Below are positions 888 to 3,090 of a DNA stretch of 64,000 nucleotides, piece by piece (the first letter of the stretch is position 1; every line of letters begins with the position of its first letter). Made by a program: the position numbers and the translations under genes. Under the pieces are notes generated by a model that saw only the letters and a program-made list of their open reading frames with translations, had not been told where the DNA came from and did no database searches. The stretch lies in contig NZ_VFQC01000001.1 in NCBI RefSeq assembly GCF_006717075.1, forward strand, positions 558,001 to 622,000, given 5' to 3'. This stretch comes from Haloactinospora alba. GTDB taxonomy: Bacteria; Actinomycetota; Actinomycetes; Streptosporangiales; Streptosporangiaceae.

Positions 888-2012
888 ATGACACAACTGG
901 CATACGGAACGCTCCAGCAACTGCCCAAGGTGCTCCTGCACGACAACCTCGAGGGCGGCCTCCGGCCCAGCACCCTCGTGGAACTCGCCGCGGAGCAGGG
1001 CTACACGGGCCTTCCCGCCGAGGAGCCCGGCCGGCTGCAGGAGTGGTACGCCCGGGAAGGGGCGCGGCTGCACGAGGCGGAATCCGTGCGCTTCGAACCG
1101 GTGCTGGACCTGTTGCAGACCCGGGAGGCACTGACCCGGGTGGCGGCCGAGTGCGCCCAGGACCTCGCCGAGGACGGCGTCGTCTACGCCGAGGTCAAGG
1201 TGGCGCCGGAGCTGCACACCCGTCAGGACCTCAACAGGGAGGAGGTCGTGGCCGCGGTCCTGGAGGGACTGCGCGTGGGGGAGGCCAAGTCCCGGCTGTT
1301 CGGGCGCACCGTCGACGTGCGGCTGCTGCTCACCGCGATGCGGCAGGCGGCCGACTCGTTGGAGATCGCCGACCTCGCGGTGCGGTACCGGCACCAGGGG
1401 GTCGCGGGCTTCGACATCTCCGGGCCCGAGGCGGGGTACCCGCCCACACGCCACATCTCGGCCTGCGAGTACATCAAGCGGGAGAACTTCAACCTCACCC
1501 TGCACGCGGGGGAAGGGTTCGGACTCTCCTCGATCTGGGAAGCGATCCAGTGGTGCGGCGCGGAACGGCTCGGCCAGGGCGTGCGCATCATCGACGACAT
1601 CGCCGTGGCCGAGGACGGCTCGGCCAAACTGGGACAGCTCGCCTCCTTCGTCCGGGACAAGCGGATACCGCTGGAACTGTGCCCCAGTTCCAACGTGAAC
1701 ACCGGCGTCGTGCGCGACCTGTCCGAGCACCCGGTGGAGGTGCTGCGGAAACTGCGGTTCCGCGCCACCATCAACACCGACAACCGGATGCTCGACCGCA
1801 CCTCGATGACCGAGGAGTTCTCCCGGCTCGCCGACGAGTTCGGTTACGGCCTGGAGGAACTGCGGTGGTTCACGGTGAACGCGATGAAATCCGCTTTCAC
1901 CAGCCACGACGAGCGTCTCGCGCTGATCAACCACACGATCAAGCCCGGCTACGCCACGGTGCGTTCCGGATACGCCAGCGCGGCGTTCTTCCGCCAGGAA
2001 GACGCCTGGTAA
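888..2012 (+). CDS. adenosine deaminase-like protein with substituted active-site residues
   Basis: A 374-residue homologue of actinobacterial adenosine deaminase, which hydrolyses adenosine to inosine in purine salvage. Overall similarity is clear: LLH..L.GGLRP at the N-terminus, FDISGPEAGYPP, LHAGEGFG, CPSSNVNTG and NTDNRM. Key residues differ. The HDHLDGG metal motif reads HDNLEGG, so the second metal-ligand His is Asn, and the catalytic RLGHGVRI motif reads RLGQGVRI, so the general base His is Gln. The HAGE Glu/His and the NTD Asp are retained. It may be inactive, metal-altered or act on another substrate. AAGGAGG abuts a first ATG at 885; the second ATG at 888 has better spacing, so I chose it. 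Confidence 0.85.
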   Translation: MTQLAYGTLQQLPKVLLHDNLEGGLRPSTLVELAAEQGYTGLPAEEPGRLQEWYAREGARLHEAESVRFEPVLDLLQTREALTRVAAECAQDLAEDGVVYAEVKVAPELHTRQDLNREEVVAAVLEGLRVGEAKSRLFGRTVDVRLLLTAMRQAADSLEIADLAVRYRHQGVAGFDISGPEAGYPPTRHISACEYIKRENFNLTLHAGEGFGLSSIWEAIQWCGAERLGQGVRIIDDIAVAEDGSAKLGQLASFVRDKRIPLELCPSSNVNTGVVRDLSEHPVEVLRKLRFRATINTDNRMLDRTSMTEEFSRLADEFGYGLEELRWFTVNAMKSAFTSHDERLALINHTIKPGYATVRSGYASAAFFRQEDAW

Positions 2013-2040: not shown

Positions 2041-3090
2041 TCACGAGCGGGCCGCGCTGTCGGTGGACGGCAGCGCGCGGGCCAGCCGCTCCGGTGAGAT
2101 CCGCTCCTCGCTGACGTAGTAGAGGAGACTGCCCCCGGGGACCGGTGTCCGCCACGGTGGGCTCACCCGCAGCGTCCCGTCGACACGCGCGGCGAGCAGC
2201 GTGGCGTCGTGCTCGCGCCCCATGACGGTCTGGTAGTCGCCGAACGCGGCCGAGGGCGCGGAGTCCGGCAGGCGCAGCGCGTACGTGTTCTGCCCGCCGT
2301 AGGTCATCAGCTCCGAGTACACCTGGGATATACCCGGCGACTGGAGCTCCTCGGTCACCATGCGCGGGCTGTGCCACTGCAGGCAGCGCACCTCGCCGTT
2401 GACGTACTGCAGGCGGGTGGTGTGCTCCAGGTCCCGCAGGGTGGCCACCAGGTGGACGTCCGGGGCGACGTGGTTGACCGTCACCACGACCGCCAGGGTC
2501 TCGTGGTCGTCACGCGCGTCCACGAGAACCGTGTGCGCCCGGTGCACGCCTGCGCGCCGCAGCACGTCGCTGTCGGTGAGGTCACCGCGCACGAAGTCGG
2601 TGACGCGGTCCGGCATGGGGTGGCTCTCCACCTCGTCCCAGGCCGCGAGGACCACTGCCTGGTTGGTGTCGGCCAGCACCTCGTCGACGATGCGTTCCGT
2701 CCGGCCGGGGGTGTAGCCGAGCACCACGGTGTGCTTCCTGTGGTCCACAGTGATCGAGCCGTGCATACGCCGTCCCTTCGCGTTCTCGATGGCGCCCGCA
2801 AGCTGGGTGAAGATCGTGGTGAGCGTGGCGATACCGCCGATGATGACGTAGACCCCGACGACGTGGCCCATCGTCGTGGTGGGGTGGAAGTCGCCGTACC
2901 CCACGGTGGAGGCGGTCACGATGAACCACCACCAGTAGGTCGCGGGGTCGGTGAACCGGGCGTCCGCCGGTTCGGCGAGGGCCATCAGCGGCCAGCTCGT
3001 CACGAACACGGCGACCATCACCATGGCCGGCAGCATCCAGGTGCGCGCCCGGGTCAGGCCGCGCAGCAGGTAGGTCAGGAAAACAGGCAC
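2041..3090 (-). CDS. two-TM potassium channel with cytoplasmic RCK/TrkA-N domain
   Basis: A 349-residue membrane protein. Hydrophobic segments lie at about residues 18-38 and 78-100, with the pore loop between them carrying the K+ selectivity filter TVGYGD. A NAD-binding-type TrkA-N (RCK) domain starts near residue 120 (HTVVLGYTPG..., the Rossmann beta-alpha-beta) and runs to about 240. The architecture is that of prokaryotic 2TM K+ channels gated by cytosolic ligands. The start is GTG. The gene is convergent with the adenosine deaminase-like gene; the two stop codons are 28 bp apart and a short GC hairpin lies there. Confidence 0.9.
   Translation of the reverse strand: MPVFLTYLLRGLTRARTWMLPAMVMVAVFVTSWPLMALAEPADARFTDPATYWWWFIVTASTVGYGDFHPTTTMGHVVGVYVIIGGIATLTTIFTQLAGAIENAKGRRMHGSITVDHRKHTVVLGYTPGRTERIVDEVLADTNQAVVLAAWDEVESHPMPDRVTDFVRGDLTDSDVLRRAGVHRAHTVLVDARDDHETLAVVVTVNHVAPDVHLVATLRDLEHTTRLQYVNGEVRCLQWHSPRMVTEELQSPGISQVYSELMTYGGQNTYALRLPDSAPSAAFGDYQTVMGREHDATLLAARVDGTLRVSPPWRTPVPGGSLLYYVSEERISPERLARALPSTDSAARS

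Follow-up and report, generated by a model that had tools for sequence, protein, structure and literature searches.

An adenosine deaminase-like clade with replaced active-site residues and a conserved C-terminal tail in Haloactinospora alba and related actinobacteria

The locus and its adenosine deaminase-like gene

The window, meaning the whole stretch of DNA that was analysed (64,000 nucleotides of Haloactinospora alba, contig NZ_VFQC01000001.1, positions 558,001 to 622,000), begins inside a sugar-acid kinase gene, which is followed by a gene resembling those of adenosine deaminase (ADA) and by a convergent ion-channel gene. The features of the locus, in window positions, are the following:

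1–769, + strand: 3' part of a DUF1537 (SBD_N/NBD_C) sugar-acid kinase gene, the whole of which lies on contig 1 at 557420–558769
878–884, + strand: AAGGAGG, similar to a ribosome-binding site, directly 5' of ATG 888; the orthologues mostly carry GGAGGA-type sites, and the spacing fits ATG 888
888–2012, + strand: ADA-like gene, 374 aa from ATG 888 or 375 aa from ATG 885; Pfam A_deaminase, 298 bits
945–947, + strand: AAC, Asn in place of the zinc-ligand His17, alone among 20 orthologues
951–953, + strand: GAG, Glu in place of the substrate-contact Asp19, by alignment to solved ADAs
1503–1514, + strand: intact HAGE motif with the zinc-ligand His214 and the acid Glu217, from the sequence and orthologue comparison
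1575–1577, + strand: CAG, Gln in place of the catalytic His238, a replacement found in 18 of 20 orthologues
1773–1784, + strand: NTDN (NTD at 1773–1781), with the zinc-ligand Asp295 intact; the next Asn is the usual residue in canonical actinobacterial ADA
1980–2012, + strand: C-terminal tail AAFFRQEDAW and stop codon, clade-specific
2041–3090, − strand: ion-channel/TrkA-N gene, convergent with the ADA-like gene and flanking the locus

The first ATG given by the open reading frame tool for the ADA-like frame was 885 (885–2012, + strand), and residue numbers of the window protein are counted from it. The better supported start was nevertheless ATG 888, since the equivalent Met is the start in 18 of the 20 other clade members and most of these 18 have a GGAGGA-type site before it at matching spacing. 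The original prediction of an ADA homologue at 888–2012 held, the frame being open and the profile alignment that had been proposed as a check covering positions 1–327 of the 330 of Pfam A_deaminase (PF00962), with 298 bits against a cut-off of 27. The NCBIfam equivalog model for ADA, NF006847, gave 492 bits (cut-off 412) for the window protein; all 21 members of the clade described below matched this model, clearance of the cut-off being seen for the window protein.

Active-site residues of the window protein

The active site is described with mammalian ADA residue numbers, and the roles given to the His17, Asp19, His238 and Asp296 columns are those established for the mammalian enzyme. On alignment to solved mammalian ADAs, N21 of the window protein corresponded to His17, E23 to Asp19, Q231 to His238 and N300 to Asp296, so that the catalytic places read His15, Asn17, Glu19, His214, Glu217, Gln238 and Asp295. 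The two replacements that had been proposed from the sequence, of the second metal-ligand His by Asn (HDNLEGG, codon AAC at 945–947) and of the catalytic His by Gln (RLGQGVRI, codon CAG at 1575–1577), thus fell on His17 and His238, and the HAGE (1503–1514) and NTD (1773–1781) motifs were intact as stated. The account of HDNLEGG was incomplete in one respect, in that Asn was counted as a change, whereas the Glu in place of Asp19 (D23E), displayed in the same motif, was not. N300 represents no change, because the 296 place is Asn in 43/43 canonical actinobacterial rows. These rows, a count that omits the divergent paralogue L005 (the tree outgroup, with Thr at the Asp296 place), were invariant at the eight catalytic positions (His/His/Asp/His/Glu/His/Asp/Asn), and the residue losses therefore exceed chance; chance or a misreading of motifs was ruled out by this invariance together with the alignment to solved ADAs. 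In PMC9483566, roles are described for both His238 and Glu217 of ADA, and His238 is presented as the base that turns the zinc-bound water into hydroxide.

Distribution of the clade and variation of its residues

When 341 genomes of the host family were searched, with an orthologue defined by at least 70% identity, 20 genomes (the window genome included) were found to carry an ADA-like orthologue. The next matches reached at most 63% identity, and the ten that were fetched all had canonical motifs. Among the best 80 matches in a species-level genome collection, at least five were clade members, namely three Nocardiopsis species, one Nocardiopsaceae strain and one actinomycete metagenome-assembled genome. 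The His238 place was Gln in 18 of the 20 orthologues, Asn in one (L106) and His in one (L103). Asn at the His17 place was confined to the window protein, its HxH pair (His15, His17) reading HDN and that of the other 19 close orthologues HDH. His15, His214, Glu217 and Asp295 were kept in 20/20 close members and His17 in 19/20; the four zinc ligands and Glu217 were accordingly complete in all 19 orthologues other than the window protein, of which 18 have His238 replaced and one has His. The Asp19 place was more variable (D 15, V 4, E 1), as was position 296 (N 15, C 2, G 2, S 1).

A 21st, diverged member, G225b, is a second ADA copy in genome G225 (L164, 58%). Four of its catalytic places are changed (His15 to Asn, Asp19 to Ile, Glu217 to Gln and Asp295 to Gly), and it keeps His at 17 and 238. 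Its frame is open and its C-terminal tail is retained. The clade total is at least 21, as the family matches were given as best matches only and others like G225b could be among the weaker ones; G058, G239 and G250 also have second copies, which the tree showed to be canonical. When residues present in at least 85% of 20 clade rows were compared with those in at least 90% of 41 canonical rows (L012, L025 and L005 being left out), 16 core positions were near-fixed to different residues, including the His238 place and the replacements R105K, R157D, F194C and F341H.

C-terminal tail and structure model

The proteins of the clade end in a common tail, FFRxEDxW in 20 of them and ALFRREDLW in the 21st, with F369, R370, E372, D373 and W375 invariant in 21/21; the canonical ADA rows of the alignment were without the FFRxEDxW tail. 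A DNA pattern for FFRxEDxW followed by a stop codon was run against 345 genomes from the order (the host family contributing 341) and matched exactly the 20 close-orthologue genomes, once each. The reversed pattern, used as a control, gave no match in the same 345 genomes.

An AlphaFold model of the window protein, built on a 22-row alignment, had a mean pLDDT of 77.7, with segments 182–187, 208–216 and 225–233 and the tail (363–375) below 50. The solved structures closest in fold were those of mouse ADA and of mutants of it, with 1fkw as the best match (TM 0.78/0.83), and the model confirms the ADA-type TIM-barrel fold, with low confidence in the active-site loops. Structure prediction, which had been put forward as a check, thus bore out the fold, whereas the active-site geometry and the position of the tail in the model were unreliable. 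As to a tail acting as a lid over the active site, the model gave no confident tail position (pLDDT < 50).

Canonical ada in the carrier genomes

The host genome (4.94 Mb, 4 contigs) contains five A_deaminase genes. A second, intact ada, the presence of which the original prediction had proposed to examine, was found in L001 (contig 1, 3189574–3190587, minus strand), which is of the canonical type (HDHLDGG and RLGHGVRI) and 57% identical to the window protein. Canonical ada was present in all 20 carrier genomes. The canonical copies L165, L166, L168 and L170, from same-genus genomes (G131, G129, G128 and G126, respectively), grouped apart in the tree from those of the other carriers, and this separate grouping suggests that ada was replaced by horizontal transfer in these four.

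Phylogeny, selection and rate

In a 65-row protein tree, the 21 clade rows formed one side of a single branch (support 100/99), which was present in 100% of 200 bootstrap trees. G225b and then L103, both with His238, branched first within the clade. The exact placement of G225b is unsure owing to its long branch (1.08), and the fork that parts L103 from the remaining clade was weak (84/38). An order of events in which the tail came first and His238 was then replaced by Gln is likely, and the weakness of this fork keeps it short of proof.

Selection was assessed by simple counting of dN/dS in the 20 close members, G225b being left out. In 22 within-genus pairs, values ranged from 0.11 to 0.42 for the clade and from 0.07 to 0.42 for the canonical copies, the clade value being higher in 14; eight of these pairs set against each other two sections of genus g35 that have their canonical copies at separate places in the tree. 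Once these eight were excluded, the ranges were 0.11–0.35 and 0.07–0.26, respectively, and the clade had the higher value in 12 of 14. For the full set of 190 pairs, the clade dN exceeded the canonical dN in 124 (means of 0.160 and 0.139). The clade genes are therefore under purifying selection, slightly less tight than that on ada. A decaying pseudogene was ruled out by the 21/21 frames free of internal stops together with the within-genus dN/dS of 0.11–0.42.

Compared with its near relative G047, the window copy had a dN of 0.141 and the canonical copy one of 0.120, so its rate does not stand out within its genome. The window protein differed at 24 of the 146 positions invariant in the 43 canonical rows (L005 left out). 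Five of its changes at such positions were private (H21N, A179S, Y255F, V296I and L302M), and the other 19 close members had 0–2 private changes each. The eight catalytic positions were not significantly enriched in changes, whether in the 20 close members (4/8 against 42/138 other invariant positions, p 0.22), in the window protein alone (3/8, p 0.12) or in G225b alone (4/8, p 0.08); the only set that reached significance was that of all 21 members pooled, with 7/8 catalytic positions changed (p 0.008).

Association with the DUF1537 kinase

The best NCBIfam match of the upstream kinase was D-threonate kinase, with 236.5 bits, under the cut-off of 450. The kinase and the ADA-like gene lay within a 1.5-kb flank of each other in 18 of 20 genomes, the distance in the remaining two being 1.9 and 4.2 kb; in G225, the kinase was 8.6 kb from the diverged copy, all 21 members being less than 9 kb from a DUF1537 kinase gene. 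In four genomes, the kinase was inverted and still adjoined the ADA-like gene. Other frequent neighbours were an MFS transporter, a Gfo/Idh oxidoreductase and Lon. The kinase was present in 72 of 341 family genomes, all 20 carriers included, and is therefore not dependent on the ADA-like gene. An obligate partnership was unsupported, as 52 of the 72 kinase genomes were without a close ADA-like orthologue (one of them, G225, having the diverged copy), and at the seven kinase-only loci examined (L128–L134) the search beside the kinase gave no ADA-like match. No kinase was found in the 1.5-kb flanks of 10 canonical loci of the family and L001 that were scanned, in contrast with its position beside the ADA-like gene.

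At L124 (G025:C35:35113-36455), the kinase beside the ADA-like gene consists of two overlapping frames, which reads as a frameshift or an assembly error; the ADA-like gene there is open. Upstream of the kinase of the window genome, an MpaB/Lcp-type oxygenase gene (PF09995; L006:6659-7909, G000:C1:554659-555909) is situated between two MFS genes. Neither this gene nor the ion-channel/TrkA-N gene had a match beside the other loci examined.

Possible function of the clade

We read canonical deamination as reduced or lost in the clade, and most likely absent in the window protein. For the latter, one of the four zinc ligands, the water-activating His and the ribose-contact Asp are all missing, which, given established ADA chemistry, argues against useful deamination of adenosine. 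As regards Gln238 alone, more caution is needed, since hydroxylate formation by mouse ADA is reportedly not impeded when His238 is replaced.

The reading that we prefer, and to which we would give about an even chance, is that the window protein is a duplicated and repurposed ADA that now binds a ligand and has a partner-contacting tail; selection on the genes and the invariance of the tail point to such a role. An ADA paralogue in the host family would have gained the short tail FFRxEDxW, after which the catalytic base His238 was probably lost to Gln, the zinc site being kept in most members. The window protein would have been eroded further by the loss of a zinc ligand (H17N) and the change of Asp19, and would no longer deaminate adenosine, acting instead by binding. 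More speculatively, a ligand, which may or may not resemble a purine, could sit in the barrel, and the conserved tail could contact a second subunit or a partner, perhaps one encoded at the linked DUF1537 kinase locus. The term pseudoenzyme, offered originally next to that of a changed enzyme, is a fair description to this extent: the window protein combines a kept fold, lost catalytic residues and purifying selection, and the plain term suits it and G225b better than the clade, most other members of which are changed only at His238 and, in some, at Asp19 or 296. A more specific version, in which the members are ADA-derived pseudoenzymes whose tail docks a partner, perhaps the DUF1537 kinase, and whose old site senses a purine or related ligand as a signal, seems rather unlikely to us; if true, the stepwise erosion of the clade, beginning with the tail and proceeding through His238 to single zinc ligands, would be a case of a metabolic enzyme turned into a regulator.

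Metal chemistry appears to matter still in most of the clade, given the zinc ligands complete in 19/20 and Glu217 in 20/20 close members, and for the same reason an altered zinc enzyme has to be taken seriously as another explanation for these members. The His238 kept in L103, the lack of a significant focus of change on catalytic positions outside the pooled set, the ordinary dN of the window copy, the tail left unplaced by the model and the many kinase genomes that have no close ADA-like orthologue also count against the preferred reading. Such a protein would be a zinc amidohydrolase in which Gln238 orients the zinc water and Glu217 protonates a substrate other than adenosine, the window protein working with three ligands and Asn or being weakened. 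The 16 near-fixed new core residues are what a new specificity would be expected to produce, and the neighbourhood of the gene, with its sugar-acid kinase, Gfo/Idh oxidoreductase and MFS transporter, is also consistent with it. The absence of one zinc ligand from the window protein speaks against this enzyme, as does G225b, which lacks two ligands and Glu217 and yet has an open frame and the tail; moreover, the ribose- and base-contact positions drift, with none fixed to a new residue. We regard a zinc amidohydrolase as a tentative possibility.

That the protein is an ordinary ADA, a redundant isozyme which tolerates His238Gln and in which the Asn is mild or recent, is improbable. The matches of 21/21 members to NF006847 (the window protein with its 492 bits over 412), the mouse His238 mutants with solved structures (1uio, 1uip) and the reported hydroxylate formation without His238 would all agree with it; however, a canonical ada resides in every carrier genome, the ribose-contact Asp19 is V or E in 5/20 members, and the window protein has lost a zinc ligand. 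It had been stated that the reading would fail if homologues from related genera shared the residues and had measured deaminase activity; the Gln proved to be shared by related genera, the Asn was not, and no measured activity was found in the literature searched. That the Asn (C to A) reflects a mistake in sequencing, or that the His was lost very recently in this one strain, in a protein really of the HxH, Gln238 type, is highly improbable: the Asn occurs in one assembly against His in the other 19 orthologues and the codons are one base apart, but D23E in the same motif and four more private changes suggest real divergence, and Gln238 would be unaffected either way.

Comparison with known deaminases

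The window protein shares with canonical actinobacterial ADA (NF006847, PRK09358.1-2; PF00962) full-length homology, about 56–63% identity and the HAGE and NTDN motifs, and differs from it in the changes of His17 to Asn, Asp19 to Glu and His238 to Gln and in the FFRxEDxW tail. Neither the fold nor the family is new; the novelty lies in the lineage, in its tail and in the graded way in which it has lost catalytic residues. Among the literature matches listed, in which few subscription journals were covered, there was no paper whose title concerned such an ADA-like clade. The clade proteins are probably misnamed as ADA in databases: 19 of 21 are without the catalytic His and 2 of 21 without zinc ligands, yet the match to the NCBI 'adenosine deaminase' equivalog model makes annotation as ADA likely.

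Solved mutants of mouse ADA (1uio, H238A; 1uip, H238E; 1fkw, D295E; 1fkx, D296A) have the same fold with catalytic residues changed. These are single laboratory changes, whereas that of the clade is natural and nearly clade-wide, with the loss of a zinc ligand added in the window protein. The clade therefore offers a natural series, from His238 kept, through Gln or Asn and the loss of one zinc ligand, to the loss of most of the site, which makes the contributions of His238 and of single zinc ligands testable, as well as the transition from an enzyme to a non-catalytic protein. The adenine deaminase of the ADA family (3rys, AAur1117) has the same fold as the window model; it presumably has Glu at the Asp19 place, like the window protein, and, unlike it, is taken to keep HxH and His238. 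Another A_deaminase gene of the host genome, L002 (G000:C1:3326706-3327683), has HGGE instead of HAGE and LHLHFTGS as its front motif, and probably belongs to a different deaminase subfamily.
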